64,000 nucleotides of DNA from Leptolyngbya sp. SIOISBB (GTDB lineage Bacteria; Cyanobacteriota; Cyanobacteriia; Phormidesmidales; Phormidesmidaceae): contig JAAHII010000001.1 of NCBI GenBank assembly GCA_010671905.1, positions 7,278,026-7,342,025 on the forward strand, read 5' to 3'. The position numbers were made by a program, and so were the translations under genes. The notes under the pieces are model-generated. The model was given only the letters and a program-made list of their open reading frames with translations, had not been told where the DNA came from and searched no databases. Numbering within the stretch: the stretch's first letter is position 1; each line of letters opens with the position of its first letter. This document shows positions 1 through 49,449 of the stretch, one piece after another.

Positions 1-3000
1 TCGGTTTGTGGCTCCAGGGTAACCCCCGCCAGCTGCAAACCAGCGTCTAACAAAATGGGATGCAGGTGATAGAGCTGCGCGTCGGCGAGTAGCTCATCGG
101 ATACTTGAATCTGCGCTAAGGCTTCCCCCGCCCCGAGCCAAATCTCTTGAAGCATGCGGAACTGGGGACCGTAAGTGAGTCCCCGCTGCTGGTAAGTGTC
201 GTAAACCTGATCGGCGGCGATCGACTTTACGAGTTCCTGCTGTTTGTCGGCCAGCGAAAATGGCTTGGCCGGGGGCGTGCCAGGTTCAATCCGACCTTTG
301 GCATGACGCTGCCAAGTGTCAATTGCAGGGGCAGCGGCGCTAAAGATCTCGAACTCAGCCCCCGCTGCCGATAATTGCGTAACGGCGGTTTGAACAATTA
401 CGGGCTCCGCTGTGGGTAATCTGAGCGCCTTCAGCAAGGAGACATCGCGCAGCACGGGTGTTGGGTATTGACAGGCATGGGCCGCCGCGATCGCGCCTTC
501 CAGATACCCGGCAGCAGGCATCACGACGGCACCCAACACCTGATGATCTTTCAGATAGGCGGGCGTATCGGGATGGAGTTGAGCTTGAAAGTATCGCGCT
601 GTGGTTCCGGCCAGAGGTAAGGGGGCGCCAAGCAGAGGATGAAGGGGAGAAGTGGGGGCGTAGGGGAGTGGGGGAGTGGGGGAGTGGGGGAGTTCGACCC
701 AATAGCGCTGGTGCTGGAAGGGATAGTTAGGCAACTTGACCATTTGCCGGGGATGCGATCGCTCGCAGCCAGCCCAGTCAATCGTGGCCCCTGCCACATA
801 GAGTTTGCCGAGACTCGTCAGTAGGGTTTGCCAATCGGCATCGGGGCGCAGGCTGGGCAACCACAGAGCCTCGATTGCAGGCAAACAAGCTTGGCCCATA
901 GCCGCCAGTACAGGTTTCGGGCCAATTTCGATAAAGGTGTCGTAGTGTTCTGCCGCTAACGTGGCCATCCCGGCGGCAAACTGCACCGGCTGGCGAACGT
1001 GATTGACCCAATAGTCAGCGCTGGCAACCTCGGCGGTGAGGGGTCGCCCCGTGACGTTGGACACCAGAACTATCTGAGGTGAGGCATAGTTCACCTGATT
1101 CGCCACGACTTCGAACTTCGCCAGCATCGGTTCCATCAGAGCGGAGTGAAAAGCATGAGAAACCTCCAGTACCTTGGTTTTGATGCCTTGTTCTGTCAAC
1201 AGGGCCACGACAGATTCTAAGGCTGCCAGTTCGCCAGAAATCACCGTTGCTGCCGGGCCATTGATGGCGGCGATCGCGACCCCTTCTGGCAGTATTCCAG
1301 ATACTTGCTCAGCAGCGGCCCTCACCGCGACCATGCCACCCCCGGCCGGTAAGGCCTGCATCAAGCGACCGCGGGCCGCTACTAGCCGCAGTCCGTCTTC
1401 CAGAGAAAAGACTCCGGCCAGGCAAGCCGCCACGTACTCGCCAATACTGTGACCTAGGACGCCGTCGGGTTCAATGCCCCAGGAAAGCCAAAGCTGAGCG
1501 AGGGAGTATTCCAGGGCGAAGAGGGCGGGTTGGGTATAGGCGGTGGGGTGGATGGGGAGATGGGGAGATAGGGAGATGGGGAGATGGGAAGGGTTTTCTC
1601 CTGTTTCCTGTTCCCTATGGTCTATTCCCTTGCCACCATAAAGCACTGCTAACAAGTCAACTCCCTCATCCGCCAGAATCTCGGCACAGTAGTTGATTGC
1701 CTGCCGGAAGACCGGTTCGGTGTCGTACAGTTCACGGCCCATGTGGGGATATTGAGAACCTTGCCCGGTGAACAGGAAGGCAATTTTACGCTGTGACTGG
1801 CTGGGAGCAGTCGCTGCCTTCGCCGCAGAAGAGCCACTACTTAAATAGTGTTTTAGCTGCTGGTGCAATTGAGGGAGGTCGGCGGCGACTAGCGCGAGGC
1901 GGTGGTTGAAGTGCGATCGCCCCACCCCGGCAGAAAAGCAAATATCGGGCAGGGTCTCGGTGACTCCGGCCTCTAGCCAATCGTGGTACCGCTGTACGAG
2001 CTGACACAGCGCCCCATCACTGCGGGCTGACAGGGGCAGCACATGTAGCGGACGTTGATTGATGGTCGCGCCGATATCTTCTCCGTCCTGAGGGGAAATT
2101 TTGAATTCATAATGTTGGAGAGCTTCGCTTTTCTCGCAGAGTATTGCGAATTCATTTTCAGGTGCTTCCTCCAGAACCATATGCACGTTCGTGCCGCTCA
2201 TACCAAAGGAACTGATGCCCGCCAGGCGGCTCTCTGGGGTCGCGGGCCAAGGCGTGAGTTGAGTAGGAACAGTAACGGCAAGTTGGTTCCAGGGAATATA
2301 AGGGTTGGGGGTTTGCAGATGGAGGTGGGGCGGGATTTGCTGGTGCTGCAAGGACAGAATCACTTTGATCAAACCCGCCACGCCCGCCGCCGCTTCGAGG
2401 TGGCCGATGTTGGTTTTAGCAGAGCCGATCAGCAACGGCGTGGAACGTTGCCCCATCACTTGATTGAGCGCGAGCACTTCAATCGGGTCACCAAGGCGAG
2501 TGCCAGTACCGTGAACTTCGACGTACTGCACCTGTTCTGGCTCGATCCGGGCATTGGCGATCGCCTCTTGCAGCACTGATTCCTGCGCTTTACCATTGGG
2601 GGCAGTGAGGCCGTTGCTAATGCCATCATGATTGACGGCAGACCCCCGTACCACTGCCAAAATTGGGTCTTGATTGTCAATCGCATCGGATAATCGTTTC
2701 AGCACCACGACGCCACAGCCCTCGCCGCGGCCATAGCCATCGGCAGCGGCATCAAAGGTTTTGCAGCGGCCATCCGGAGCCAAGGCTTTGAGTTTACAAA
2801 AGCCGATAGTGGGTTCTGGGGTCAGCATCAGGTTGACGCCCCCCGCTAACGCCAGGTTGGCTTCCCCATTCCGTAGACTTTGACAGGCCAGATGCACTGC
2901 CAGCAGGGACGATGAGCAGGTGGTGTCGAGCTGCATTGTCGGACCTTGCAACCCAAAGGTGTACGCTAAGCGACCCGCGACGATGCTGCGAGTATTGCCC

Positions 3001-3563
3001 AGGCTGCTGTGGGCATCAATGCGAGTCAGGTCGCCAGAGCGGACGCTGAGCTGTGCATAGTCGTCAAAACTCACGCCGACAAAAACGCCAGTACGCGTGC
3101 CGCGCAAGTCGAAGGGCGGCTGTCCGGCATTCTCTAAAGCGGTGTAGCTGACCTCTAGCAGCAGCCGCTGTTGGGGGTCGAGGCTGCGAGCCTCACGGGG
3201 CGAAATGCCAAAAAACTGCGGATCGAACTGATCAACCTGATCAATAAAGCCACCCGAGCGAGTATACATCTTACCGGGTGCTTCGGCGTCAGGGTCGTAG
3301 TGGGCCGCCACGTTCCACCGCTGCTCAGGGATGTCGGTGATGGCATCGACACCATTGCGCAGCAGTTCCCAATAGGCTTCCGGGCTGTTGGCCCCGCCGG
3401 GAAAGCGGCAGGCCATCCCCACGATCGCGATGGGTTCTGTTTGCTGCTGGCGGATGGTCTCTAACTCCGATCGCAGCGATCGCAGCTGCATGGTGGCTTC
3501 ACGCAGCAAGTCCCGGTAGTTGTTGGGCTGAGAGTCCGGTTGCTGGGCACGAGATTGAATCAT
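1..3563 (-). CDS. Type I polyketide synthase, KS-AT-DH, C-terminal part outside window
   Basis: Minus-strand frame open from the ATG at 3563 to the window edge. KS domain: active-site DTTCSS with Cys216, HGTGT with His351, NIGH with His388. AT domain: GHSIGEY with Ser706. A dehydratase domain begins HPLLG at about residue 970, with DHQVLG catalytic His1007. The AT choice and any KR/ACP/TE lie outside the visible part. The start is set by a strong AAGGAGG site just upstream and by an ATGA overlap with the FAAL gene stop, so the two are translationally coupled and the FAAL protein probably hands its acyl chain to this KS. Two in-frame low-complexity insertions sit in the KS-AT linker (about residues 645-671) and at the AT/DH junction (about 958-975). 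Product unknown. Confidence 0.95.
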   Translation of the reverse strand, partial: MIQSRAQQPDSQPNNYRDLLREATMQLRSLRSELETIRQQQTEPIAIVGMACRFPGGANSPEAYWELLRNGVDAITDIPEQRWNVAAHYDPDAEAPGKMYTRSGGFIDQVDQFDPQFFGISPREARSLDPQQRLLLEVSYTALENAGQPPFDLRGTRTGVFVGVSFDDYAQLSVRSGDLTRIDAHSSLGNTRSIVAGRLAYTFGLQGPTMQLDTTCSSSLLAVHLACQSLRNGEANLALAGGVNLMLTPEPTIGFCKLKALAPDGRCKTFDAAADGYGRGEGCGVVVLKRLSDAIDNQDPILAVVRGSAVNHDGISNGLTAPNGKAQESVLQEAIANARIEPEQVQYVEVHGTGTRLGDPIEVLALNQVMGQRSTPLLIGSAKTNIGHLEAAAGVAGLIKVILSLQHQQIPPHLHLQTPNPYIPWNQLAVTVPTQLTPWPATPESRLAGISSFGMSGTNVHMVLEEAPENEFAILCEKSEALQHYEFKISPQDGEDIGATINQRPLHVLPLSARSDGALCQLVQRYHDWLEAGVTETLPDICFSAGVGRSHFNHRLALVAADLPQLHQQLKHYLSSGSSAAKAATAPSQSQRKIAFLFTGQGSQYPHMGRELYDTEPVFRQAINYCAEILADEGVDLLAVLYGGKGIDHREQETGENPSHLPISLSPHLPIHPTAYTQPALFALEYSLAQLWLSWGIEPDGVLGHSIGEYVAACLAGVFSLEDGLRLVAARGRLMQALPAGGGMVAVRAAAEQVSGILPEGVAIAAINGPAATVISGELAALESVVALLTEQGIKTKVLEVSHAFHSALMEPMLAKFEVVANQVNYASPQIVLVSNVTGRPLTAEVASADYWVNHVRQPVQFAAGMATLAAEHYDTFIEIGPKPVLAAMGQACLPAIEALWLPSLRPDADWQTLLTSLGKLYVAGATIDWAGCERSHPRQMVKLPNYPFQHQRYWVELPHSPTPPLPYAPTSPLHPLLGAPLPLAGTTARYFQAQLHPDTPAYLKDHQVLGAVVMPAAGYLEGAIAAAHACQYPTPVLRDVSLLKALRLPTAEPVIVQTAVTQLSAAGAEFEIFSAAAPAIDTWQRHAKGRIEPGTPPAKPFSLADKQQELVKSIAADQVYDTYQQRGLTYGPQFRMLQEIWLGAGEALAQIQVSDELLADAQLYHLHPILLDAGLQLAGVTLEPQT
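663..694. repeat. Octamer minisatellite GGGGAGTG inside PKS
   Basis: Four head-to-tail copies of GGGGAGTG (the last ending in TT). They are read in frame in the PKS as a Pro/Leu/His/Ser/Thr-rich stretch just before the DH domain. The unit differs by one step from the GGGGAGAT repeat at 1554-1585. Confidence 0.85.
1554..1626. repeat. Octamer minisatellite GGGGAGAT plus CCTGTTCCCTAT tract inside PKS
   Basis: About four copies of GGGGAGAT (one degenerate), followed by a tract with CCTGTTTCCTGTTCCCTATG. The tract resembles the repeat-rich spacer at 32125-32160. The frame stays open and encodes an insertion between KS and AT that other AT linkers do not need. Confidence 0.8.
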
Positions 3564-6500
3564 GACGCCCCTCCTTTCAGGATGGCTAGTTCCGCTGCCA
3601 GCAGATCGGCCATTTCCCCTTCACTGAGATCGTCTAAATCGGGGTTGGGGAAAGGGGCGTCGGGGCGTCGGTGGGGTTGAAGATCAGCGGCCCCCCACGA
3701 TGTCCGGTCGGTTGAGGGACCGTCCGTTTCACCCCACCCAAGGGAATTTGGGGAACTTGCATGGGGGGCGAGGTGAGTCACCAGTGCCGAGATCGTGGGA
3801 AAATTCCACGCGACGGTGGCATCCAAGGGTTGTTTAAGGGCTAACAACTCCTCCAGATCTTGTGCTAACTCCACGGCCATGACGGAATCCACGCCATAGT
3901 CGGCGAAAGCTTTATCCGGATCGATCTCGGCCGGGGAGAGTTTGAGGCGATCGGCCAGCCAGCGTCCCAACCAGGGCGCTAAGGCTTTTGCCGACGCAGA
4001 GGAGGCAGGCTTTGACCAGGCAATAGACTGTTCTGCCGGCCCTTGGAGAGCAGGCTCTGGCCAGGCAACGGACGCCTCTACCGGCCCCCTAGGAGCTTTA
4101 TTTTTGCGGCTGTCTGCGGGCGGGGATGAAGGATTTCGTTCAGGTTGGGAGCTTTCAGGACTGGCACTGAACGAGCTAACCCCAGCTTTTTGCAGCCAAG
4201 GGTCAAGGCTATGCTGCTCACCTATTTGGGTTTGCTCAAGGTCACCGATGGTCTCGGCGTAACGGGCAATCCACTCAGCAGTCTCGGGGGCTCCGGCAGC
4301 GACGATTTCCTGGGGGGATGACGTCAGTGCCTGGGCCAACAACTGCTCAAAGGATAGTCGTGTCCACTCTACAGCTCGGGGGCAAGCGGTGCGCTCTACC
4401 TGCTGAATGGCCAGCAGTAGGGCGATCGCCGCCAATTTGCCTACCGCTAGATAGGCCCAGCGCCGCGCGGTCACGGCCTCGGTGTGGCGATGCTGATACC
4501 GCGCCAGTATGTCCTCTGCTGTGGTAAATAAGCGATCAGCCAGGTCAGGGGCTCCCAAATCTTCACTAAGAAATACCTTGAGGCCCGCTCCCGCATTCAA
4601 TACCTGCGCGCCCAGATGCATTGTCAGAGTTTCCGTCGGGCCTTCAAAAATACGCAGTACGCGAGCATCCCGCAGAATTTGCGGTGCTAGATTCGGTTCA
4701 ATGTAGCCTCGTCCACCCAAGCATTGCACCAGGTCATCGGCCGCCTGCCAATAAAATTCGGGAGCGAGGATTTTGCAGGCCGTGAACGCTTCAGGAATCA
4801 CCGCCGATCCCTGATCGAGCCGGGTGGCGATCCAACCCACTAGGGCTGAGAGCGCTCCAATCTGGGCTGTGAGACCGCCTAAGCCAGTCAACAGAGCCGG
4901 ATTTTCGAGGAGTCGCCCGGTGCTGATCTGGCGACGAGAACTGTAGCGCAACATCAATTGGGCACAACGCTTCATGCCCCCCACGCAAGCAGCGGCGATC
5001 GCCAGTCGGCCATACATCATGGCGTCCTGGGCCACGGCCATGCCTTGGCCAGGTTGGCCTAAAAGCTGCGCTGCTACAACGGGTACGCCCTCCAGATACA
5101 CGGTGTTTTGCACCATGCCGCGCATGCCCATCGTCAGGGCTTCGGGTCCCTGTCGCAGACCGGGTGTGCCCTTAGTAATGGCAAAGCCACTGATGCCTGA
5201 GGCTGCCGGATGTTGGACAAAGACATTCAAGATACCAGCCCACGCCGCCGACCCACTCCAGATCTTTTCACCATGAAGCCGCCAGCCGCCGTCTGTCGCG
5301 ATCGACACCTGAGATTGAATCGCGTTGGGATTAGACCCCGCCCCCGATTCCGTCAGGGCAAAGGCCGCTAACTCGCGCCCCGTGGCCAATCGCGGCAGCC
5401 AGTCGGCCTGCAAGTCGGGATGAGCAGCTTGCAGAATCGGTCGAATGCCCAGCACGTTATTTAGACCGACAAAGAGCGCCAGGGTAGGATCGATCGCCCC
5501 TAATTGCTCCAACACCCGCAGCATGTCCTGGTGACCTAGTCCCAATCCAGCATATTCGGTCGGCACCTGCATCCCCAGCAGTCCCTGGTTGCCAAAATCG
5601 AGCACGACTCCAGGAGAGAGGCATCGCCGCTCGTCCATCAATCGGGAATTCAGCGACTCGTTCGCGTACTGGCGCAGCCAGTGAATGAGGGCTTCAGTAC
5701 GAACGGGATCCCCTGGATTTGTGCATTCTGAGGAGCCATGATTGGACATGGCTGATGCCTGCCCAAGGGTCGTCGAGGGACTTTGATCAGGTTGCCCCAG
5801 CCACCATTCGGCGACGGCGTCAAATCTCTGGTTTTGCCAGGCCTCTTTACAGGCCTGGCGCTGTACCTTACCACTTGTTGTGATCGGCAAACTACCGGGT
5901 TTCAACAACATCGCCGCCGATATCTGCAGCCCATGCTGATGCGAAACGGCCGCGCGAATGGCATTAATTACAGCATCTGCATTCAGCGTCCGTAGGGTAG
6001 TCCGCTGCACTTCCTGCACGACGATCAGCTGCTCTTCTCCCTCCATCTCTATGCCGAAAGCTGCTCCGCTCTGGGCCTGTAACGCTGGGTGGCTCTGCCC
6101 GACGGTCTGCTCAATGTCCTGAGGATAGTGATTTTGCCCGCGAATAATGATCAAATCCTTGAGCCGCCCAGTGACAAACAGTTCTCCCTGCCGCAAACAG
6201 CCTAGATCGCCCGTGCGCAAAAAAGGTCCGGTGCCATTCGCGAGTTCAGCGGCAAAGGTGTCTTGGGTGGCCTCGGGCTGTTGCCAATAACCTTGGGCCA
6301 CGCTCGGGCCACGCAGCCAAATTTCGCCGATCTGTCCCTCGTCACAGGGCTGATGCGTGTGCGGATCAACGATCGCGATGGTTTGATCGGCGGCTCCTGA
6401 TCCACAACTCACCAGTGGCAGCGCTGTATCCGCCAATGACTCAATCAATTGCCCCTGAGCGATGGCCAATCGATCCACCGCGTCGATGCGGGGTGGGGTG

Positions 6501-7609
6501 GTCTTCGCACCACCTGATGCGAAGAGAGTCGCCTCTGCCAGACCGTAACAGGGGTAGAAGGCCGTTGCCCGAAAGCCACAAGTCGCAAAGGTCTCGGCAA
6601 ACTGACTGAGGGTGGCAGCGCGGATCGGTTCGGCTCCAGTAAACGCCAACTCCCAATGGCGCAAATTCAGTCCCTGCCGCTGCTCCGGCGTGATTTTTTG
6701 CAGACAGCGCTCATAGGCAAAATTCGGCCCGCCACTAGTGGTGCCACCAAAGGTGGTAATAGCCTGCAGCCAGCGAATGGGCTGACGCAAAAACGACAGT
6801 GGCGACATCAAGGTGACCGGAAAGCCGCTGTAAAGAGGTTGCAGAATGCCACCGATCAGGCCCATATCATGGTGGGGCGGCAACCAGATGACGCCGTGAC
6901 TCGCCGCAGAATGTCCAAATCGGCTGTGAATCAGCCCGAGATTATGCATCAGGTTGCTATGGCTGACCATCACCCCTCGGGGCTGACTGGTAGAGCCAGA
7001 GGTGTATTGCAAAAGCGCGATCGCAGAGCCTCGCTCAGGAAGAAGCGCGTCATTAACCAGCTTAGGAATGCAATACTCCGGTTGACCCACTGCGACCTTG
7101 GCTGAAGCCAAGGTCATTCTCGGAGCCATACAGGCAATGGGGTGGGCAATTTTCTGAGCCACTGATGCCAACTGCCGCTGCACCTTAGTCAGCTGATCGA
7201 CTGGCGTCAGGATTGCCTGAGGCTGAGCATCCACGACCATGTGCAACCAACGTGCCAAACCTTGATGCCGTCCGGGTAACGGTACGGGCACGGAGATCGC
7301 TCCCGCCTGCAAACACCCCAAAAACGCCGCCACAAAATCTAGTCCCGCAGGCAGAGCCAGCATTACTGGCTGATTGGCAAATTCTGCTAACTGCACGGCG
7401 ATCGCATCGACCCGGAGAGCCAGCTCGGCATAGCTCCATTCATGTCTAGGATTGGCAGTGATGTCATCCAACTCATCGGGCAAAAATCGATACGCTAACC
7501 GATGAGGCTGATGCGCTGCCCGCCATTGCAGAATCTCTATCAGGCTGGCGTTAGCAGACTTGAGGATTTGCTCAACCCCAGCACTTTTGCGGTCACACTC
7601 TTGCACCAT
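3560..7609 (-). CDS. Fatty acyl-AMP ligase / acyl-CoA dehydrogenase / ACP fusion (PKS starter unit protein)
   Basis: About 1349 residues. FAAL domain about 15-595: ATP-binding YTSGSTSQPRG at about 201-211, GEIWLRG, RTGD at 465-468, and GRLKDLIIIRG followed by the C-terminal SGKVQR lysine. Acyl-CoA dehydrogenase domain about 640-1000: FALTESGAGS substrate/FAD loop and RIFEGPTETL, whose Glu is at the position of the catalytic base. ACP about 1205-1285, with DSVMAVEL carrying the phosphopantetheine Ser at about 1242. The last 25 residues form a LSEGEMADLLAAEL docking-type helix. Expected role: activate a fatty acid as acyl-AMP, load it on its own ACP, introduce an alpha,beta double bond and pass it to the PKS. 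I chose the ATG at 7609 (AGGA seven bases upstream) over the TTG at 7615. The stop overlaps the PKS start as ATGA. Confidence 0.93.
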   Translation of the reverse strand: MVQECDRKSAGVEQILKSANASLIEILQWRAAHQPHRLAYRFLPDELDDITANPRHEWSYAELALRVDAIAVQLAEFANQPVMLALPAGLDFVAAFLGCLQAGAISVPVPLPGRHQGLARWLHMVVDAQPQAILTPVDQLTKVQRQLASVAQKIAHPIACMAPRMTLASAKVAVGQPEYCIPKLVNDALLPERGSAIALLQYTSGSTSQPRGVMVSHSNLMHNLGLIHSRFGHSAASHGVIWLPPHHDMGLIGGILQPLYSGFPVTLMSPLSFLRQPIRWLQAITTFGGTTSGGPNFAYERCLQKITPEQRQGLNLRHWELAFTGAEPIRAATLSQFAETFATCGFRATAFYPCYGLAEATLFASGGAKTTPPRIDAVDRLAIAQGQLIESLADTALPLVSCGSGAADQTIAIVDPHTHQPCDEGQIGEIWLRGPSVAQGYWQQPEATQDTFAAELANGTGPFLRTGDLGCLRQGELFVTGRLKDLIIIRGQNHYPQDIEQTVGQSHPALQAQSGAAFGIEMEGEEQLIVVQEVQRTTLRTLNADAVINAIRAAVSHQHGLQISAAMLLKPGSLPITTSGKVQRQACKEAWQNQRFDAVAEWWLGQPDQSPSTTLGQASAMSNHGSSECTNPGDPVRTEALIHWLRQYANESLNSRLMDERRCLSPGVVLDFGNQGLLGMQVPTEYAGLGLGHQDMLRVLEQLGAIDPTLALFVGLNNVLGIRPILQAAHPDLQADWLPRLATGRELAAFALTESGAGSNPNAIQSQVSIATDGGWRLHGEKIWSGSAAWAGILNVFVQHPAASGISGFAITKGTPGLRQGPEALTMGMRGMVQNTVYLEGVPVVAAQLLGQPGQGMAVAQDAMMYGRLAIAAACVGGMKRCAQLMLRYSSRRQISTGRLLENPALLTGLGGLTAQIGALSALVGWIATRLDQGSAVIPEAFTACKILAPEFYWQAADDLVQCLGGRGYIEPNLAPQILRDARVLRIFEGPTETLTMHLGAQVLNAGAGLKVFLSEDLGAPDLADRLFTTAEDILARYQHRHTEAVTARRWAYLAVGKLAAIALLLAIQQVERTACPRAVEWTRLSFEQLLAQALTSSPQEIVAAGAPETAEWIARYAETIGDLEQTQIGEQHSLDPWLQKAGVSSFSASPESSQPERNPSSPPADSRKNKAPRGPVEASVAWPEPALQGPAEQSIAWSKPASSASAKALAPWLGRWLADRLKLSPAEIDPDKAFADYGVDSVMAVELAQDLEELLALKQPLDATVAWNFPTISALVTHLAPHASSPNSLGWGETDGPSTDRTSWGAADLQPHRRPDAPFPNPDLDDLSEGEMADLLAAELAILKGGAS

Positions 7610-7680
7610 AGACAATCCTAAAAAGCTATCTTTTATTGAATTCTATGCTCAATAAAGATCGACAAAAAGTTGGATCTTAT

Positions 7681-7695
7681 TAAAAACTATTCTCA
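7681..7695 (-). promoter_or_regulatory. Possible Fur-type box next to the FAAL promoter
   Basis: Minus strand TGAGAATAGTTTTTA, a weak match to the 7-1-7 pattern TGAnAAT-n-ATTnTCA. It lies just downstream of the proposed -10, where a bound repressor would block transcription. The left half is identical to the stronger boxes before the receptor and tonB genes; the right half is degenerate. Confidence 0.22.
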
Positions 7696-7697
7696 AC

Positions 7698-7725
7698 AGT
7701 ATAGGGGATTCGCAGGTTATGTAAA
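7698..7725 (-). promoter_or_regulatory. Putative sigma70-type promoter of the FAAL-PKS operon
   Basis: On the minus strand, TTTACA (7725-7720), a 16-bp spacer and TATACT (7703-7698), about 90 bp upstream of the FAAL ATG at 7609. It is the best -35/-10 pair I see in the spacer. Confidence 0.4.
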
Positions 7726-8004
7726 GCCTCTATGAAGGAATTGAAGTCTCCTACGTAGAGATGAATTTTAAATCTGTAGAAATCCTTAGATGTCAAAGCA
7801 GATAGCTAATTCAGCCTAAATCCCCCTGAAAGGGAAAATGCGTTGCTGTAAACACAGGTGATATTGGCCAGATTTAACTGACGCTGCTGAACGCTCATGT
7901 CCTGCCTTTCCATTAAAATCCAGTATTAGCAGAACTAGACTGGGTGTTGTCTCTATTTGAGAAGTGGTTTCATCTACACGAAACTGAACCGAAAACGTCA
8001 GTGC
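7726..8004. other. Spacer between PPTase and FAAL genes
   Basis: No coding frame or strong hairpin recognised. AT-rich, upstream of the proposed FAAL promoter. Confidence 0.5.
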
Positions 8005-8829
8005 TCAATCCTGGCGCTGCACAATGTCTCGACTACTGATGCAAGAAAAACGGGTGGCCTGACCAGCCCGGCCAGGGATAGACCAGCCAAACTGTATCTG
8101 TAGCGAAGTCTCCAGGTGGGTAGCCACGGCCATACAGTGCTGAGGTGTGGGGTTTAGCGAAGTAAACTTCCAGGCTGTGGCCGAGGCCGGGTCCAGCAGC
8201 GACTCAAACTGAATCATCTCACCAGCATTCAGATGCGGTTGAAACTGAAACCGCATTTGCTGCAGCGGTATTGACAACCCTTTTCCTTGAGCTTTGACGT
8301 AGGCCTCCTTCAATGTCCATAAGCTAAAGAAACGCTGACTCCAAGCAGTGCCCGATAATTGCTGCAATGCCGCGAGTTCATCAGGCGTGCAACTCATATC
8401 CGCGATCGCTGCCAAATCGCCCGCCCGCGTCATCCACTCCACGTCGATACCGACATCCGCTGACTGGGTAATCGCGCAGGCCACCAGCCCCGTGGTATGA
8501 GACAGGTTAAACCGTAGGGGTGGCTGTCCTCGCTCTGTGGCAAGCTCTGGGCGACCATGAGCGTTTGTGGTAAATCGCCAAGCGGCGGGGGCACAGTCAC
8601 TGTAGCGAGATAAGCTGCTGCGGAGCAGCGCATGGGCAACGAGGTACTCATGGCGGTGCTGGGGAAAGTGAAAGCGGTTATACCGCGATCGCTCTTGTTC
8701 ATCTAACCAGGAAACATATTGGCTGATCAGTTCCGGCTGACAGCACCGATGGGGTTCCGCCATCCACACATGGACGGCGTCGGTTCCTGGCCCGGGGGCT
8801 TTGCGGCCTGCTGCAGGCGGGTTGCTCAT
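8005..8829 (-). CDS. Sfp-type 4'-phosphopantetheinyl transferase
   Basis: Transfers the phosphopantetheine arm of CoA to carrier-protein serines. It is the expected activator of the ACP in the neighbouring FAAL fusion and of the PKS carrier domains. Diagnostic motifs: a FNLSHT box, GIDVEW (Mg-binding Asp/Glu), and WTLKEAYVKAQGKGLS in the C-terminal half. About 274 residues from the ATG at 8829, usual for the Sfp class. A GTG at 8856 would add nine residues and cannot be excluded, since neither start has a clear ribosome site. Same strand as FAAL-PKS, but separated by about 395 bp with its own candidate promoter, so probably a separate transcript. Confidence 0.93.
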   Translation of the reverse strand: MSNPPAAGRKAPGPGTDAVHVWMAEPHRCCQPELISQYVSWLDEQERSRYNRFHFPQHRHEYLVAHALLRSSLSRYSDCAPAAWRFTTNAHGRPELATERGQPPLRFNLSHTTGLVACAITQSADVGIDVEWMTRAGDLAAIADMSCTPDELAALQQLSGTAWSQRFFSLWTLKEAYVKAQGKGLSIPLQQMRFQFQPHLNAGEMIQFESLLDPASATAWKFTSLNPTPQHCMAVATHLETSLQIQFGWSIPGRAGQATRFSCISSRDIVQRQD

Positions 8830-9016
8830 TTCTGACTCTGCCTTTGGCACCTCCACAATCCGGGTGCGATCGTTGCATAATGATTAGACATCGCCTAATA
8901 ATACAAAAAGTCATTAACGCTGTGGGTGGTTACTCGCTTTCTCCACTGAATGGATGAATGCTGGCTTGCGCGTTCAAAAGATTTCAACTTCACTCTAGAT
9001 TCATGGCCGGTTGCTT

Positions 9017-9859
9017 ATGGAATGGCTTGCTGCCCCACTCGGCTTCGCAAAATATGTACTAACGGGTTTGGTCATGTATGGCTGCTTTATGGTGGCCGAG
9101 CGAGTCCGTCCTGCCGAACCTCATCAGCCCTTGTCTCATATCTGGTTTAATCTCCGATGGTATGTGGCTTACAGCTTAATTGTCGTGCTCATACAGGCAC
9201 TCGGCATAGGGGTCGCCGTCACTTGGATACAGGAATTTCTTGGAGCTCCTTTAATATCGCTGCCGATCCCTCAAAATATTTGGGGCTATGGTCTCCTATC
9301 GTTGCTGTATTTACTGGTTACTGATTTTTTCTATTATTGGTTTCATCGGTGCCAGCACCAAGTTCCCTTCTTGTGGGAGCAACACAAATTTCACCATAGC
9401 GAAGTTTCTTTGAATGTCACCAGTACCCGCCGAGTTCATTGGTTAGAAGATCCTTTGATCGTGATTTTCCTAGTCCTCCCGATGGGCCTGTTATTTGAGT
9501 TCAACGGCTTGCCACTCGGCATTTTGGCATTTGTACAAGTGCTTTGGCTACAGTTTATTCATCTCAACCTACGGCTGAATTTGCGATCGCTGTCGCCAAT
9601 TGTTGCCGGGCCACAATATCACCGGATTCACCACTCCTTTCAGTCAGAGCATTTAGACAAGAACTTCTCAGCTTTTTTCCCTTTTTGGGATATTCTGTTT
9701 GGCACTTATCATCATCCAAGATGTGACGAATTTCCCGCTACTGGCCTGGTTGAAAACGAAGACTATAACAATATTTTTGTGGCCAGCTCACTTCCCTTTA
9801 AAGAGTGGATAAGTCCGCGCTATTTTGGGAAGTATCTTAAGAAGTCGCTGAGGTCATGA
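9017..9859 (+). CDS. Membrane di-iron fatty acid hydroxylase / sterol desaturase family protein
   Basis: 280 residues from the ATG at 9017 (the frame also contains a TTG six bases earlier). The three histidine clusters of the FA_hydroxylase superfamily are present: HRCQH (110-114), QHKFHH (122-127) and YHRIHH (201-206), set among about four hydrophobic segments (roughly 10-30, 50-72, 90-108, 145-175). It should insert oxygen or a double bond into a lipid or carotenoid substrate at the membrane. It is divergent from the PPTase gene across 187 bp. A role in tailoring the FAAL/PKS lipid is attractive but is inference from position only. Confidence 0.88.
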   Translation: MEWLAAPLGFAKYVLTGLVMYGCFMVAERVRPAEPHQPLSHIWFNLRWYVAYSLIVVLIQALGIGVAVTWIQEFLGAPLISLPIPQNIWGYGLLSLLYLLVTDFFYYWFHRCQHQVPFLWEQHKFHHSEVSLNVTSTRRVHWLEDPLIVIFLVLPMGLLFEFNGLPLGILAFVQVLWLQFIHLNLRLNLRSLSPIVAGPQYHRIHHSFQSEHLDKNFSAFFPFWDILFGTYHHPRCDEFPATGLVENEDYNNIFVASSLPFKEWISPRYFGKYLKKSLRS

Positions 9860-10190
9860 ATTGTCTTGGAAAAAGACAAAATTCCAGTTTTATCGTACGA
9901 CGGTAGGCATCACCTGATGATCGCTAAATCAGCCTAATAGTCGCAATATTGCCTCCTCCCAAAGACTGGCTACTGGACTTACAACCTACCCTTAGGATTC
10001 ATAGGGCTAGCATCTCCCAAGCAGTGGGGGCCACTATCGCATCGCCCCTCACAGCCTGATCGGGAGCCTTCCTGCGAGTGCTGGGCGTTGAATGTAAAGT
10101 TTAGAAGTATCTCAACCTGTGAGTTACCATAATTGATGGATTGGGTAATTTAATGTTAGAACCCAGTCTTATTTCTAAAACTTAATTCCC
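9860..10190. other. Spacer upstream of DUF3102 gene
   Basis: No gene or convincing terminator seen. It probably holds the promoter of the gene at 10191. Confidence 0.45.
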
Positions 10191-11180
10191 ATGTCGGCAA
10201 TGAGTGGCCCGAACGATCCGGTTCAACTATCTACGTTTTTCGATTATGAAAGTCTTGACCGAGCACAACGTCAGGTCATTCAAGAACATACGGGTGAAAT
10301 TCGGAAGCGGTTACGCCGTTCGGCTCAGGATGTGTGGGAGATTGGTCAGCGCTTAGCCGATGTGCGATCGCGCCTGAAGTACGGGCAGTTTCTGACTTGG
10401 CTGAAAGCAGAATTTGGTTGGAGTCAGCGCACAGCCTATAATTTCATCAACGTCTATGAGACCTTTGGCGATAGATTTGCAAAACTTGCAAAAGTTGACA
10501 TTGCCACTTCAGTGCTGTATCAACTGGCGGCCCCCTCAGTGCCAGAAGAGTTGAGAACCGAAGTCCTGCAGGCCGCCGCTAGCGGCCAGAAGATCACCCA
10601 TAAGTCAATCAAGTCAGCGATTAAGCAGAGCAAGCAAACCACTAACACCGCCAGCATCGCGCCTGAAACTCAGGAGCCCGCGGTCAAGAAGCCGGAAATT
10701 ATCACGGTGATTCCCAAATCGGTTGAGCTGGCCAACCCATCGCGCGCGGCTGAGCCAGAGCCGGAGTTGGAAATTACCGCTGGCTGGTATCAACTCGGAG
10801 CTCAACATCTGTTTTGCGGTGATACCGCGACCCCTAGCTTTGTTAACGCGATATCCCAGGCGAAGCTGGCGATCGCAGTCACCGCTGAAGATTGGGCCCA
10901 CGACTGGCTGATCGACCAAGTCGATAGCGTCGTTGTTTTGCCGCAGGAAAAATTTACGATAGGCACTTTGAAAGAACTGCTGGGCTTACTTTCTCGGACG
11001 GGAGACACGGTCGTTTTTCCCTGGTTGCCCCTGCCAGAGATGATTGCGACGGCCCACAGTTTGGGGCGACTGGTGTATGCGGGCGACCCGAGTAAACAGC
11101 GTTGCCAACGAGCGATCGCGGCGACTGGCCTGCAGGTTCAGCCCCTTGCTAGCGAACCGGCTGTCACTTTGGCCGGATAA
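10191..11180 (+). CDS. DUF3102-domain protein with methyltransferase-like C-terminal remnant
   Basis: 329 residues. Residues about 25-150 match the DUF3102 type: a basic helical stretch, then WEIGQRLADVRSRLKYGQF, WLKAEFGWSQRTAYNFINVY and a predicted helix-turn-helix, consistent with DNA binding. A Pro/Glu linker (155-195) leads to WYQLGAQHLFCGDTATPS (199-216). This closely resembles the segment (W.LG.H.L.CGD) that precedes the catalytic domain in ParB-linked and phage DNA N-methyltransferases. The rest (217-329) has no DPPY/NPPY catalytic motif. The methylase half is therefore degenerate or repurposed, and a DNA-binding regulator is the safest reading. An internal TTTGCAAAACTTGCAAAA tract (10475-10494) resembles intergenic motifs at 19692 and 45026. 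Confidence 0.8.
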   Translation: MSAMSGPNDPVQLSTFFDYESLDRAQRQVIQEHTGEIRKRLRRSAQDVWEIGQRLADVRSRLKYGQFLTWLKAEFGWSQRTAYNFINVYETFGDRFAKLAKVDIATSVLYQLAAPSVPEELRTEVLQAAASGQKITHKSIKSAIKQSKQTTNTASIAPETQEPAVKKPEIITVIPKSVELANPSRAAEPEPELEITAGWYQLGAQHLFCGDTATPSFVNAISQAKLAIAVTAEDWAHDWLIDQVDSVVVLPQEKFTIGTLKELLGLLSRTGDTVVFPWLPLPEMIATAHSLGRLVYAGDPSKQRCQRAIAATGLQVQPLASEPAVTLAG

Positions 11181-11331
11181 ACCCGGTCAAGTATCGAGGG
11201 CGTGTCATCCATTAAACTCAGGCGCTTTTAAGATCAAACACTGCCACGCCCGCACTCCCCTAACCAGTCGGGGGCTGCGTCCCTTCTGTTGAGAGGATTT
11301 GACTACTAAATTATGAGAGCCCCTAGCCAAT

Positions 11332-12081
11332 ATGCCGCTGCCAACTTCCCCCTGGCTCAGTTGTCCTACCCCAAACTCGCAAGCTCGCCTCAGGATGTTT
11401 TGCTTCCCCTATGCGGGCGGGGCGGCTCAGATCTACCGACACTGGTCAGTTGCCTTACCACCTGTTGTTGAAGTTTGCGCGATCGAATTACCCGGACATG
11501 GTCGACGCATCGCCGAACCCCCGATGACTCAATTAGCTCAGCTCGTTGACCATTTAGGCACAACCTTGTTATCGGGGTTGAATCAACCCTTCATTTTCTT
11601 TGGGCACAGTCTGGGTGCGCTGATTGCCTTTGAGCTGACGCGATGGCTGCGATCGCGTCAATTGCCGCTGCCAGACTTGCTGGTGGTATCTGCGGCCCGC
11701 GCACCCCATCTGGCCTTAACTGAGCCGCCGCTGCACCAACTGCCGAAAGCGGACTTTCTAACTGAATTAAATCGTTATGGTGGCACCCCTCAGACTGTCA
11801 TCCAAAATGATGAGCTGATGGAGCTGTTGCTGCCCACACTGAGGGCGGATTTTGCCCTGTTAGAAACCTATCGCTATCAAGCTCAGGCACTGTTGTCGTG
11901 TGCGATCGCAGCCATTGGTAGTAAGCAGGATGCGATCGTGAGTCTTGACGAAGTGAAATCTTGGCAGACTCATACGGCGGCAAAATTTTCGCTAGATGAG
12001 ATTAGCGGCGATCATTTCTTTGTTCATCAGCCCCAGCTTTTACCCCTAATTGCCAGCAAACTAGAGCACCTCGTCCGTTAG
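11332..12081 (+). CDS. Type II thioesterase (alpha/beta hydrolase, GrsT-like)
   Basis: 249 residues. Start segment FCFPYAGG (24-30), ELPGHGRR (52-59), nucleophile elbow GHSLGA with Ser93, and C-terminal SGDHFF with catalytic His228, all typical of stand-alone editing thioesterases of PKS/NRPS clusters. It removes stalled or wrong acyl groups from carrier proteins and is therefore expected to act on the FAAL-ACP/PKS line encoded upstream on the opposite strand. ATG at 11332 with a plausible GAG-rich leader. Transcribed alone; the 151-bp gap to the DUF3102 gene leaves co-transcription open. Confidence 0.92.
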   Translation: MPLPTSPWLSCPTPNSQARLRMFCFPYAGGAAQIYRHWSVALPPVVEVCAIELPGHGRRIAEPPMTQLAQLVDHLGTTLLSGLNQPFIFFGHSLGALIAFELTRWLRSRQLPLPDLLVVSAARAPHLALTEPPLHQLPKADFLTELNRYGGTPQTVIQNDELMELLLPTLRADFALLETYRYQAQALLSCAIAAIGSKQDAIVSLDEVKSWQTHTAAKFSLDEISGDHFFVHQPQLLPLIASKLEHLVR

Positions 12082-12409: not shown

Positions 12410-15400
12410 CTAGGCGAAAATCGTTGAGTCAACACCCGTCACGCCCTGCAACGCCCCTAACAATTCGTTGCTTTGCGTGAGCACGAGGGTATTGTCACCA
12501 GACTCGAGTAGCTGTACACCTTCTGGTGTTAGACCACCCAACGAGATCGTATCAATGCCAATCTCAAAGTCAGTGACAATGTCAACGCCTTGACCTAAGC
12601 CAAAGACAAATTGATCGGCGCCAACCCCACCGGTATAGGTATCGTCGCCATCGCCACCATTGAGGAAGTCATCACCGCTAAGGCCCAAAATGATGTCATC
12701 TCCCCCGAGTCCGTTGATGACATCGTTAGATTGACTAAAGCCTCGAATGGTATTGTCCAAGTCATTCAAGAAGGTGACCGTGTCGCGATTCCAGAGATGG
12801 CTCTGGGTGGAATCGGCATTGAACACGTCAAAGCTATCGGCAAAGTTAGCCTCGCCGTCAAACAAAATGTTGCCGCGATCGACGCTGCCCCCCCTCTGTT
12901 TCAGAAGATTGTCTAGGTTATCCAGCGCAAAATCTTCTAGAACAACTTGAGTGCCGGTGACATCCCCTACAAAGGTGATTTCGAGATTTTCACCAGCTTG
13001 CGTCAATCGCAAGTTTTCTGGCGTTAACCCGGCCCCCATGAACTTGATCGTATCCAGTTCATTGATGATGGTATCGTCGGGACGTGCTCCTAGGCCCACG
13101 CCGCCAAAGTCAGTAATGGTGATAACTTCACCAGCTGCCACATCAAACTGAACCTGTCCTCCCAAGCCAGAGAGAGCACCACCGCCCGTCGTGCCATCTT
13201 CGATCGTGACTTCGATGGTGCTCGCGGCGGGGTCAACTTCGTAGGCTTCTCCATCAATGAGTTCGAAGGGCAACACTTCAGTGCCTTCGGCCACATCATC
13301 TTGGAACACGGGGACCGTCACTGTCGCGGTGGGGTCAGTAATGCGGAAGAACAGTGAACCAGCCACTTCATCGGTACCGACAATGTTGCCGCCCGTGACG
13401 ACCACGCCTTCGACGACCGTCTCGTCTTCGGGTAGACGAGGATTAGTGGCGTTGACATCAAACTCAGCGATCGCCCTTGGTGGTCCGGCCAACTGCACCA
13501 CCAAGCCGTCTGCGGGAATGTCACCCGTGACGTCAAAGGTGACTTCGATAACCGTTTGGTCAGATTCCACTAGCGTCGTGGGTGTCGCCGTCACGCCCAC
13601 CGTGGGACTGGTCGCTGGGGGCACCCCATCGGTCACGGTAAAGGTGCCACTATTAGCGGTCGGGTCAACCGTGTAGCCTTCGCCTGCGGTCAAGGTGTAG
13701 GTGTAGGTCTGGTCGGCCTCTTGGACCAGGTCATCCGCTACCGGCAGCGTGATACTGGCGGTTGACTCGGTGATGGTGAAGCTAAAGTTACTGAGGAAGC
13801 CCGTGCCGGCAGCGGCGGGGTCGGAGTTGTCTTCAGCGGGGTCACCATCTTCGAGGGCAAAGACGTCCAGAGTGCCCCCCACAATATTGCCAAAGTTATC
13901 GTTATCGGCCTCAAACGAGGTGTCGAAGCGATACAGGATGTTGCCTTCATCCGTGACACGAGTTTGCACCGCGCCATCGCCATCCGGAGCCAAGAACTGT
14001 TGCAGAATCTCCGCAATATCTCCTTCCAAGTTGACGGTGATGCCCTCGGGAGGAATCTCGCCGTCCACCGCGAAGTTCAGGACCAAGGCGGTGCCATCGG
14101 CTTCGCTAATTAGCCCCGGTGTCGTGCTAAAGCTCACGACGGGGGCATCGCCACCACCTGTCGTGTCGTCTTCCAGCAGAGCGTCGATGCGAGCATCCCC
14201 AACGTCGGCCCCCGCAAGATCCGGGAGTCCCAGAGCGGTAGCCACTTCTGGGGACAGCAGCAAGTCAGCATCGCTAATTTCAAACTCGTCGCCGGAGACC
14301 GATACCGTTCCGGGATTGCTGATATCAAATAAGACCTCTAGACCCAGCGGATCATCGAGCGTATCAGCCACAAAGAAACCACTGGCGGTGTCGGTAACCC
14401 GACTGGGGTCAAAGCCGATCGAGAATTCACCGACGGTGGCTTGAGCCCCACCCAGCCCCAAAGTCAGAGTACCGTCGTGCTCAATGGAGCCTCCCAGCGG
14501 CGTAAACGGTACGGGGGCAAAGGTAAAATCAGTGTCATCAGTGATGGCAAAGCCCACCTGGAAATTGTCAGAAAATGGGGGCGTATCACTGTCAACACCG
14601 ACTAGGGTGAGGCCAGCGGCAGACTCTAACAAAGGCAGGTCTAAGAATACGCTAGTAACCCCAGATTCGACTTCAAAGACGGCGTCTTCACCCCCATCGT
14701 TAATCGTGATGGCCACCTCGCTGGCATCTGGGTTGATATCGTAGTTTTCTCCATCGAGCACCGCAAACTCAAACAGTTCTGAACCTTCATTTGCCCCATC
14801 ATCGAAGACATCGAAGCTGATGGTGGCGGTGTTGTCAGTCATGATAACTGTGAAGCCGCTGCCATCTTCGTTGGGAGCGGGAAAGCCTGCTAGTCCCTCA
14901 AACGCAACGTTAGGATTGCCCGTTTCGTCGTCAACAGTGATAAATTCACCGATCGCCCCCACGGTGGGACTATCCACAAAGACCTCGATGCCCCCATCTG
15001 AGATATCGCCCTGAGCCGTCAGGGTGATGGTCAAAGGCTCACCTTCATCCACTTCTGTGGAGTCAACCGCGAGGCTGACGACCGGACCGCCGACCCCTTC
15101 TACACCGTCGGTGACCGAAATGGTGGCAGAGGTGGCCTCTGGGTTCAGCACATAGCCTTCACCAGGCAAGAGGCCAGTGGTAAAGGTGCTGTCAGGCTCA
15201 GCCAAATTGTCATCAAACACGGCGACCTTGATAAAGGCGTCGGGCTGAGTCAAGTGCCAGTCGATCAAGAACTGCCCAGTTGCGATTTCTTCAAATCCAA
15301 AGAATTCGAGCCCGCTAATGACTTCGGGGTTCTCAAAGTCGAGCAGGTTGAAGTCCAGCTGAGTATTGGGGAAGAAATTGGCGTCCGTGCGAATCACCAG

Positions 15401-18400
15401 TCCATCTTCAGGAAACTCGCCGTCTACCGAGAAATTGAAAGTGATCGGGGTACCTTCCGCTTCGTTCAGACTGTCGGGAGTTGCTGTGAAGCTGACGACG
15501 GGATCGCCACCACCCGTCGTGCCATCTTCGATCGTGACTTCGATGGTGCTGGCAGTAGGGTCGACTTCGTAGGCTTCTCCATCAATGAGTTCGAAGGGCA
15601 ACACTTCAGTGCCTTCGGCCACATCATCTTGGAAAACGGGCACCGTCACTGTCGCGGTGGGGTCAGTAATGCGGAAGAAGAGCGAACCGGCCACTTCATC
15701 AGTACCGACAATGTTGCCGCCCGTGACGACCACCCCTTCGACGACCGTCTCGTCTTCAGGTAGACGAGGATTAGTGGCGTTGACATCAAACTCAGCGATC
15801 GCCCTCGGGGGTCCAGCCAACTGCACCACTAAGCCGTCTGCGGGAATGTCACCCGTGACGTCAAAGGTGACTTCGATAACCGTTTGGTCAGATTCCACTA
15901 GCGTCGTGGGTGTCGCCGTCACGCCCACCGTGGGACTGGTCGCTGGGGGCACCCCATCGGTCACGGTAAAGGTGCCACTATTAGCGGTCGGGTCAACCGT
16001 GTAGCCTTCGCCTGCGGTCAAGGTGTAGGTGTAGGTCTGGTCGGCCTCTTGGACCAGGTCATCCGCTACCGGCAGCGTGATACTGGCGGTTGACTCGGTG
16101 ATGGTGAAGCTAAAGTTACTGAGGAAGCCCGTGCCGGCAGCGGCGGGGTCGGAGTTGTCTTCAGCGGGGTCACCATCTTCGAGGGCAAAGACGTCCAGAG
16201 TGCCCCCCACAATATTGCCAAAGTTATCGTTATCGGCCTCAAACGAGGTGTCGAAGCGATACAGGATGTTGCCTTCATCCGTGACACGAGTTTGCACCGC
16301 GCCATCGCCATCCGGAGCCAAGAACTGTTGCAGAATCTCCGCAATATCTCCTTCCAAGTTGACGGTGATGCCCTCGGGAGGAATCTCGCCGTCCACCGCG
16401 AAGTTCAGGACCAAGGCGGTGCCATCGGCTTCGCTAATTAGCCCCGGTGTCGTGCTAAAGCTCACGACGGGGGCATCGCCTCCCGTCATGCCGTCAGCAT
16501 CCTCAATGGATAACGTCACTGCGCTAGCAGCACTATCAACCACGTAGCCATCACCCGCCTGTACGGTGTAGGTGATCGCTTCGACCCCTTCATCCAGGTC
16601 ATCATCAAAGACCGGCAGCGCGATCGTGGCAGTCGGGTCGGTGACATTGATCGTAAAACCGCTAGCGTCGGCGTTGGCACTCACTAGTTGCGCGCCGGTA
16701 AAGACAGCGGCACCGACATCAAATTCGGCTAAAGAACCGGGGATATCGCTATCAATGGTGACGTTAATCCCTTCTGCGGGGGGGGCTCCGCTGAGACTAA
16801 CTGTCAGAGTAGTCACGGTGCTGTCTTCTTCGACGAGGGCGGTGGGGCTCGCATTAATACCAACGACGAGGTCATCAGGCGGTGGTGGATCACCAACGGT
16901 CACCGTCACCGTCGCGGTATCGGTGCCACCCTCTCCATCACTCACAGTGTAGCTAAAGCTATCGTCACCACTGAAGCCCGCATTCGGTGTATAGGTAAAC
17001 GAGCCATCGTCACTGAGGTTCACCGTGCCGTCGCTGGGATCGGTCGCAATGGCGGCAGTCAGTGCATCACCATCCGCATCTGTGTCACCGTCTAGCACAC
17101 CACTGGTGGCATCAATCGTGAGTGGCGTGTCAAAGGCGGTGCTGTAGCTATCGTCATCAGCCACTGGCGGGGTATTGACCACGTTGGTATCTTTGATCGT
17201 TAGCGTCACATCCCCTTGCGTAGAACTAATGGTGTAACCCTCTCCTGCCAAGACCGAGAAAGTAGTCTGCTCTTCGCCGATATCATCGTTCCGCAGCGGG
17301 CCATCCGGATCCGTGACGGCTCCATTTTCAGTGCGATCCGGATCATCAAATACAGGCAATGTGATCGTGGCAGTTTGCGCTAAAACGGCAAAGGTAAAGC
17401 CGCTATTATCGGCAAATCCGGCCACCAACTGGCCACCGGTAGCAGAAGCTTGTGGCGGCGGTGGAAAGATATCAAAGTCCCCCAGGGCAAAGGTTTTACC
17501 AGTGCCGATATCAACCAACAGGCCGCCAGCCGGGGGGGGCTCACTCAGGCTAATGGTTAAGGTGACCTCTGTCCCCTCATCTTCCACAAGAGTAGTGATA
17601 TCAGACGTCAGACTTACTTCAGGCAAGGCGGGCGGGGCACCGACGGCCACGGTTACCGTCGCGGCGTTGGAGTTGGCAGTCCCATCATTTGCCTGATATG
17701 TGAAACTATCGTTGCCGCTGAAGCCCGCATTGGGGGTATAGGTAAAGGAACCATTGCTGTTGAGGGTGACGCTGCCATTACCGGGGCCACTGATCAGAGC
17801 GGCGGTGAGCGCATCGCCATCCGCATCGGTATCGCCATTCAGCACGCCGTTACCAGCATCAATTGTGAGCGCCGTATCAAAGTCGGTGGCGTAGCTGTCA
17901 CTGTCTGCGACCGGAGCCGTATTGGCGGCGGGCACTTCACTAGGGTCATCGTAGATTGTTGTCGTCGTCGAACCGACAATGTTGACAGTGGTCCCGGGTG
18001 AAACGGCAGAAGCCGTCCAGGTGTAAGCATCCGGACTGTCATTCTGAAAGTCGTTAAACACTGGCAGGCTAATGCTGGCAGTCGGCGCAATGATGGTCAC
18101 TTCGAAGGCCGAGAAATCCAGATTAGGCGAAACATCGACGGGTTGACCGGCCAAACCTGTGAACGTCAGCGCAAAAAGGTTCCATTGATTAATGGCTTGT
18201 GGGCGATCGGCCTCAAAGCGGACGACGCTGCCGCCAGGCGGAATGGGGCCATCAACGCTAAAGTTAAAGCTGAAAGGGGTGCCTTCACTTTCGATCAGCG
18301 TGTTGGTACTGACACTGAAGTTAACCGTCTCAAAATGAGCGGGATAGCTGGCTTGTAGGGTCTCGGAGAAGATCAGTGGGGTTTGCACCTGCCCATAGTG

Positions 18401-31500: not shown

Positions 31501-31606
31501 CGCCTTCTGGGGTCAAAATGGCCACAGCGGCCCCGGGCACCTCTGGCGGCAGGTTGCTATCCAAGGCATTGTCAAGGGCAGTAATGACGCGATCGGGCAG
31601 TGACAT
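28590..31606 (-). pseudogene. Serine hydrolase (class C beta-lactamase fold) fused to exoprotein modules, frameshifted
   Basis: Read as one gene with one base missing from the G6 at 30182-30187; adding one base joins both halves and matches the homologous stretch at 36515-37990. Part 1: serine hydrolase of the beta-lactamase/DD-peptidase family, SITK (nucleophile Ser at about 62), YSNTNY, and third motif HRG. Part 2: a WTGQIAGFSVEGKFSYD domain and the HLHIDDW segment. Part 3: two copies of the GVTS domain (GVTSLFLNFSLFESAGL, GVTSLALDTAFFATAGL). Part 4: GDDIYTGGAGADRF and the common C-terminal module ending LDSSVFA. No signal peptide, so the hydrolase would leave by type I secretion. As read, the products are 507 residues (stop at 30083) and an unlinked 545-codon frame. 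Confidence 0.8.
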
Positions 31607-46514: not shown

Positions 46515-46518
46515 TGAC

Positions 46519-49383: not shown

Positions 49384-49449
49384 TCAAATCCTACAGTTAG
49401 AGACGATGGCGTCAGCGACCCCTAAGCAAGTCAGCATTTTACAGCTTAT

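Follow-up and report, generated by a model that had tools for sequence, protein, structure and literature searches.

A predicted Dmaq-type lipopeptide siderophore locus in Leptolyngbya sp. SIOISBB and its probable counterpart in Anabaena PCC 7120

A stretch of 64,000 nucleotides from the genome of Leptolyngbya sp. SIOISBB (contig JAAHII010000001.1, G000:C1:7278026-7342025; genome size 8.34 Mb), referred to below as the window, was analyzed together with the DNA to its left. The window contains the starter end of a hybrid polyketide synthase (PKS) and non-ribosomal peptide synthetase (NRPS) assembly line, along with the transport genes of the locus; the remaining part of the line lies left of the window. 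We consider it highly probable that this locus makes a lipopeptide siderophore of the Dmaq type, with two unusual protein fusions and a strikingly conserved peptide core. The product, its Dmaq group, and its ability to bind iron are predicted from the gene content. The nearest named relatives of the window are uncultured Halomicronema metagenome-assembled genomes (MAGs), at about 85% DNA identity.

Organization of the assembly line

The assembly line is collinear and about 77 kb long. Its left end is located at about position 7209203 of the contig, some 69 kb past the window edge. According to the domain scans, the full line consists of a starter protein in which a fatty acyl-AMP ligase (FAAL), an acyl-CoA dehydrogenase (ACAD), and an acyl carrier protein (ACP) are joined, followed by four PKS and ten NRPS modules and by release and tailoring genes. 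Downstream of the starter are PKS1 and PKS2 (each KS-AT-DH-cMT-ER-KR-ACP), PKS3 (KS-AT-KR-ACP), and a TIGR04020 luciferase-like monooxygenase (LLM). They are followed by NRPS modules 1-4, PKS4 (KS-AT-KR-ACP), and NRPS modules 5-10. Module 6 carries Cy and nitroreductase-like oxidase domains, and epimerization domains (TIGR01720) are present after modules 1, 3, and 8. The last genes of the line encode a CmlA-TubC_N-thioester reductase fusion, a methyltransferase, a class-III aminotransferase, and a pair of small proteins. About 6 kb farther left are ExbB/ExbD-like genes. The initial annotation, made from the window, had described a polyketide pathway. The PKS modules it named are present, but the description was incomplete, and the predicted product is better described as a lipopeptide of mixed PKS-NRPS origin that contains about ten amino acids. 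The leftward extension that it had proposed as a check was carried out: the modules were found, and they gave no match to a known non-chelating product. Polyketide-only and microginin-like readings were dropped on finding the NRPS modules.

Several NRPS genes are split by frame breaks in this assembly, which speaks for a cluster that is decayed and silent in the host strain. We regard decay as unlikely. In modules 9-10, the part aligned to a relative of ~89-90% identity, the breaks are mostly one-base insertions in homopolymers, and in the ~90%-identical relative the reading frame continues across most of the break points. Because the aligned breaks are mostly of this kind, long-read assembly error seems a likelier cause than decay. 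One Halomicronema MAG has two distinct copies of the cluster edge (L074, L104), each ~90% identical to the window, which are either paralogous clusters or come from two strains.

Release genes and their probable relation to Dmaq biosynthesis

Dmaq serves as the chelating catechol in anachelin and in fabrubactin. The gene set that defines a Dmaq-type terminus, namely a thioester reductase, an S-adenosylmethionine-dependent methyltransferase, and a class-III aminotransferase, adjoins the last NRPS module. A similar set is present in a cluster on the pAt plasmid of Agrobacterium vitis. That cluster encodes FAAL, PKS, LLM, MbtH, a reductase-ended NRPS, a methyltransferase, a class-III aminotransferase, and a pair of small proteins, and it also has genes for a ferric reductase and for a TonB receptor. 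One of these small proteins is annotated as 'siderophore biosynthesis protein'. The identity to the A. vitis proteins was 47% for the methyltransferase, 57% for the aminotransferase, 61% for the LLM, and 50% for the reductase. The last NRPS module is 51% identical over 1020 aa, and the last adenylation (A) domain has the same code, DAPTLGAVNK. For the two small proteins, the identity to their A. vitis homologs was 52% and 31% (profile E-values of 7.5e-72 and 8.2e-26, respectively). The best NCBIfam relative of the methyltransferase, below the cut-off, is the daptide N-methyltransferase, a likeness that would fit dimethylation of the terminal amine.

The synthesis of Dmaq begins with FbnL and FbnM, a two-protein heme peroxidase that converts Tyr to L-DOPA, and this pair marks metallophore clusters (PMC12971057). 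In the same study, the flavin monooxygenase FbnE was proposed to form alpha-hydroxycarboxylate donors (PMC12971057). The smaller protein of the pair found here has a relative in 13 of 386 cyanobacterial genomes, an evenly drawn set.

The predicted peptide core and its conservation

The A-domain codes were extracted by alignment, with those of modules 7 and 9 read by hand across frame breaks. Modules 1-4 have the codes DATKIGEVGK, DILQLGLIWK, DAFWLGGTFK, and DILQLGLIWK; modules 5-10, after PKS4, have DLFNNALTYK, DLYNLSLIWK, DILQLGLIWK, DLFNNALTYK, DVWHISLIDK, and DAPTLGAVNK. We take the ten codes to stand for Asn, Gly, Val, Gly, Ala, Cys, Gly, Ala, Ser, and an aromatic residue. A thiazole is expected from module 6 because of its Cy and oxidase domains. 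No Asp code occurs among the A-domain codes, and Pfam scans of the open reading frames (ORFs) of the cluster gave no TauD/AspH domain.

The order of the ten codes is conserved across cyanobacterial orders. Between the host genome and genome G042, the codes agree in order at all ten positions. In Nodularia spumigena CCY9414 (G284), nine complete codes agree in order, and the first code is truncated (DAT...). The part of the Phormidesmis priestleyi cluster that was analyzed (G391) gave nine codes in order, with three single-position differences, and in Calothrix parasitica and every partial contig of this cluster type the codes agree with small substitutions. A variant cluster was observed in another genome (G125:C1:338256-390000); it has the same last module and code, the CmlA, and a TonB receptor of its own, and several residues differ, including Thr and a Lys/Orn-like code. 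It probably encodes a sister siderophore.

Almost all A-domain linkers of the NRPS genes (G000:C1:7211836-7259598) carry inserted short cyanobacterial repeats, translated as 'GNREQGIGNREQ...' and 'SPTPPLPHSPTPLLP'. They occupy mostly the same two linker positions and are also present at positions 1-3563 of the window.

The starter protein and adjoining genes

The following features were identified at the starter end (positions are those of the window):
3-3563, minus strand: N-terminal part of PKS1 (KS-AT-DH), by Pfam; malonyl-type AT (HAFH)
3560-7615, minus strand: FAAL-ACAD-ACP starter protein of 1351 aa, by Pfam; orthologous fusions in other cyanobacteria
5786-7552, minus strand: FAAL domain, residues 29-600, by Pfam
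4166-5701, minus strand: ACAD domain, residues 641-1005, with a VLCAD/ACAD9-like C-terminal extension, by Pfam N, M, and C domains
3746-4000, minus strand: ACP domain, residues 1220-1282, Ser1244 present, by Pfam and motif
8005-8856, minus strand: phosphopantetheinyl transferase (PPTase) of the Sfp/HetI type, motifs GIDVE/WTLKEAY, by Pfam
9011-9859, plus strand: fatty acid hydroxylase superfamily protein, by Pfam; inside the cluster of relatives
10191-11180, plus strand: DUF3102 protein, by Pfam; conserved in or near the cluster of relatives
11332-12081, plus strand: type II thioesterase, motif GHSLG, by Pfam; conserved in the cluster of relatives

The whole PKS1 is a protein of 2624 aa that ends outside the window, at G000:C1:7273714, and the active-site motifs of PKS1 and PKS2 are intact. 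The ACAD domain is closest in sequence to the solved ACAD9 and VLCAD structures. Since its catalytic Glu991 (in IFEG) is kept, being invariant across 9 aligned fusions, desaturation of the starter before extension is plausible. No relative of the ACAD was found in the viral contigs that were searched.

The starter protein, PKS, PPTase, type II thioesterase, and lipid hydroxylase named in the initial annotation were all recovered with Pfam, and the DUF3102 gene had been missed. The thioesterase, hydroxylase, and DUF3102 genes all lie within the locus of G042, and therefore these neighbors in the window belong to the cluster. The hydroxylase is 58% identical to that of N. spumigena and 79% identical to that of Oscillatoria CS-180. 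The PPTase gene is kept beside the cluster in the Halomicronema MAGs and was not seen there in more distant relatives.

A 2025 review of FAAL enzymes mentions neither a FAAL-acyl dehydrogenase-ACP fusion nor a CmlA-thioester reductase fusion. The starter protein was also observed in other settings. In one genome (G382, locus L016), FAAL-ACAD-ACP runs on into an alpha-oxoamine synthase domain, which is another use of this protein. In L065, L072, L088, and L107, including Planktothrix paucivesiculata, it is directly followed by a thioester reductase, and such loci may make unsaturated fatty aldehydes. FAAL-ACAD proteins are also present in clusters of Burkholderia and Trinickia (L091-L116 Burkholderia; L102, L105), some of them with KS-AT-aminotransferase.

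Transport genes and Fur-like sites

Right of the starter genes, the window contains the following features:
12410-18979, minus strand: large secreted Calx-beta-like repeat protein; similar proteins between receptor/MFS and FAAL in relatives
19795-24327, minus strand: secreted PPC/RTX protein; PPC proteins at the equivalent position of the Gloeocapsa PCC 7428 plasmid
26057-27067, minus strand: AraC-type regulator, with a second one at 27467-28477; an AraC gene is also near the Gloeocapsa cluster
30083-31606, minus strand: serine hydrolase (beta-lactamase family); Gloeocapsa has a serine hydrolase between the PPC proteins and the MFS
32170-36297, minus strand: secreted PPC/RTX protein, by domain scan
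45207-46562, minus strand: major facilitator superfamily (MFS) exporter, ortholog of the MFS next to FAAL-ACAD in relatives (identity 60-67%)
46519-49383, minus strand: TonB-dependent siderophore receptor (TIGR01783, 348 bits, cut-off 223.5), ortholog of the FAAL-ACAD-linked receptor
49444-49462, minus strand: FurA-like box ATTTCAATTCTCAATAAGC ahead of the receptor gene; its score is attained in 3 of 200 shuffles
50665-51945, minus strand: TonB protein, by domain scan
51960: FurA-like site just upstream of the TonB gene, by matrix scan

The siderophore-type transport genes that had been placed 35-60 kb from the starter are thus real (MFS, TonB receptor, and TonB). Orthologs of the receptor and the MFS lie beside FAAL in relatives, in divergent orientation, with identities of 39-56% for the receptor and 48-78% for the MFS. 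A receptor gene was found upstream of FAAL in 12 of the 19 loci of the cMT type with enough flanking sequence; in the roughly 40 FAAL-ACAD loci outside this type, there was none. The FAAL-linked receptor is also present in N. spumigena, G042, and Gloeocapsa, and overall in at least 15 relatives, usually together with the MFS exporter. The genome of N. spumigena has only four TonB receptors; genome G390 has only two, both within the predicted siderophore locus.

These data bear on the possibility that the product is an antimicrobial or allelopathic lipopeptide and that the TonB and MFS genes are bystanders or serve self-protection. Long amphipathic lipopeptides are often membrane active, and Crocosphaera watsonii keeps the cluster without the TonB receptor. 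However, the linkage of receptor and exporter is specific to the cMT-type starter across distant genomes, and the Dmaq gene set is a published marker of metallophores. An antimicrobial role therefore appears quite improbable, and a siderophore remains our preferred reading.

The Fur scan used a matrix made from published FurA boxes, scored against shuffled sequence in five regions of the window. A weak Fur-like site had been noted beside the FAAL promoter; the best site there was no better than chance, as 53 of 200 shuffles did as well. A palindrome found upstream of FAAL (TTTATTGA-N9-TCAATAAA) is not conserved among the Halomicronema MAGs. The result for the receptor promoter is only modest, because five regions were tested. 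In the FAAL promoters of relatives, from 1 to 97 of 100 shuffles matched the best site; some promoters scored well (3 for Calothrix, 2 for Calothrix CSU_2_0) and most did not.

The stretch between FAAL and the receptor, positions 12410-44340, encodes several large secreted proteins of the Calx-beta, PPC, and RTX kinds. They may belong to the siderophore locus, since similar ones recur there in relatives. Near the right end of the locus, a Mutator-type transposase is present in two frames (53594-54890).

Distribution of the cluster and its probable counterpart in Anabaena PCC 7120

The CmlA-reductase was found in all 14 genomes with a cMT-type FAAL-ACAD starter, and CmlA_N in 10 of the 386 evenly drawn cyanobacterial genomes. 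A plasmid of Gloeocapsa PCC 7428 carries the line, all on one strand and in the order seen in the host genome. In N. spumigena and G042, the FAAL-ACAD/PKS part and the NRPS part are on opposite strands, about 27-39 kb apart. This arrangement, together with the listing of the two parts as separate clusters (PMC3610870), would agree with a branched fatty acid pathway of FAAL-ACAD and the first two PKS that is independent of the NRPS. Against it stand the single collinear run in the host genome and on the Gloeocapsa plasmid, and the co-occurrence of both parts in 14 of the 14 genomes tested. We consider two independent pathways very improbable and treat the parts as one siderophore assembly line.

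The siderophore cluster of Anabaena PCC 7120 was reportedly described by Jeanjean in 2008 as all2641-all2649 with alr2679/alr2680. Targets of FurA include all2641-2649 as well as the PKS genes alr2679/alr2680. In Nodularia, a large NRPS-PKS cluster, nsp26910-27060, has no known product and a 'very similar' cluster in PCC 7120 (PMC3610870). The PKS genes nsp26710-26730 were given separately, treated as an iterative PKS of unknown role, and one of the two uncharacterized PKS clusters was also found in PCC 7120 (PMC3610870). The gene nsp26750, a ferrichrome-type receptor (PMC3610870), matches the receptor that we found beside FAAL in N. spumigena. The Nodularia cluster has been called an ortholog of the PCC 7120 siderophore cluster (PMC4247773). 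In PCC 7120, deletion of the cluster lowers siderophore production, and the structure of the product was not known as of a 2019 review (PMC6562677). By way of N. spumigena, the published clusters, and a gene census of G042, the cluster of the window is very probably the counterpart of the PCC 7120 siderophore cluster. In the PCC 7120 cluster, known here from published descriptions, seven NRPS genes share a strand with PKS genes, and further PKS genes lie on the opposite strand; G042 has the same layout. The whole Leptolyngbya line, by contrast, is collinear and on a single strand. The published siderophore role of this probable counterpart, the Dmaq-type release genes, and the FAAL-linked receptor and MFS of relatives support the lipid metallophore suggested in the initial annotation.

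Comparison with other metallophore systems

Through the A. vitis cluster, the locus resembles that of the fabrubactins, Dmaq lipopeptide siderophores of Agrobacterium, in the FAAL start, the LLM, the reductive release, the methyltransferase, the class-III aminotransferase, the small-protein pair, the TonB receptor, and the last code. The A. vitis cluster differs in having no ACAD and no CmlA fusion, far fewer modules, and another peptide core. Anachelin of Anabaena cylindrica shares the C-terminal Dmaq logic of reductase, methyltransferase, and aminotransferase (PMC4247773), as well as Ser before the terminal residue, but it is a tripeptide with a salicylate start, whereas the line studied here starts from a fatty acyl group and adds ten residues. 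Cyanochelins are likewise FAAL-initiated PKS-NRPS lipopeptide siderophores of cyanobacteria; they chelate through beta-hydroxyaspartate, in contrast to the lack of an Asp code and of a TauD/AspH hydroxylase in the scanned ORFs. As candidate products, fatuamide (salicylate starter with TauD), lusichelins (salicylate with thiazolines), and cyanochelin B (beta-OH-Asp) were rejected.

A metallophore mainly for copper or another metal, or one for metal tolerance instead of iron uptake, has also to be weighed. Copper is the preferred metal of fatuamide A, a PKS-NRPS metallophore from cyanobacteria with MFS and TonB genes in its cluster, and the thiazole nitrogen is a plausible soft donor. On the other hand, catechol (Dmaq) and alpha-hydroxy donors favor Fe(III), the TonB receptor is of the siderophore type, and the probable PCC 7120 counterpart is regulated by FurA. 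Copper or metal tolerance as the main function is therefore improbable, and we favor iron uptake by a siderophore.

Proposed pathway

In the proposed pathway, FAAL would load a fatty acid, and ACAD would introduce a 2,3 double bond on the ACP. PKS1 and PKS2 would add two alpha-methyl reduced units, and PKS3 a beta-hydroxy unit that the LLM may alpha-hydroxylate, giving a 2,3-dihydroxy acyl group. The NRPS would then add Asn(D)-Gly-Val(D)-Gly-[C2 unit]-Ala-thiazole-Gly-Ala(D)-Ser-Tyr/DOPA. The reductase would free the aldehyde, the aminotransferase would convert it to the amine, the methyltransferase would dimethylate it, and ring closure would yield the Dmaq-type catechol. The MFS protein would export the lipopeptide, and the TonB receptor would recover its metal complex, most likely that of ferric iron.

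Several points weigh against this interpretation, beside the frame breaks and the receptor-less cluster of C. watsonii described above. The residue assignments are predictions from specificity codes. For the code DAPTLGAVNK, the assignment to Tyr/DOPA comes only by way of the A. vitis cluster, although the code is identical there and in all relatives. The small-protein pair would do the job of FbnL and FbnM, a role predicted from comparison with the A. vitis homologs, because NCBIfam gave no match for FbnL/FbnM. The known activity of the CmlA family is beta-hydroxylation, which would fall here on the last residue, and its role in a Dmaq pathway is unclear. The full coordination of iron is not accounted for, because only one or two catechol or alpha-hydroxy donors can be predicted. 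Finally, the receptor and MFS genes of the host genome are 38 kb from FAAL.

Significance

A wider claim is put forward tentatively: that one lipopeptide siderophore with an unchanged ten-residue core, and a tail built by FAAL-ACAD and the cMT-type PKS, is made in several cyanobacterial orders; that it is the unsolved NRPS siderophore of PCC 7120; and that its locus also encodes large secreted Calx-beta, PPC, and RTX proteins which may retain the metal complex outside the cell or present it there. The analysis joins the PCC 7120 cluster to a lipid-starter PKS that the Nodularia genome paper lists apart. It offers a predicted structure for the PCC 7120 siderophore, with an acyl tail that is unsaturated, dimethylated, and dihydroxylated, a chain of ten residues, a single thiazole, and a catechol end. 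If it is true that one molecule is so widely conserved, it might serve cyanobacteria as a common iron currency.

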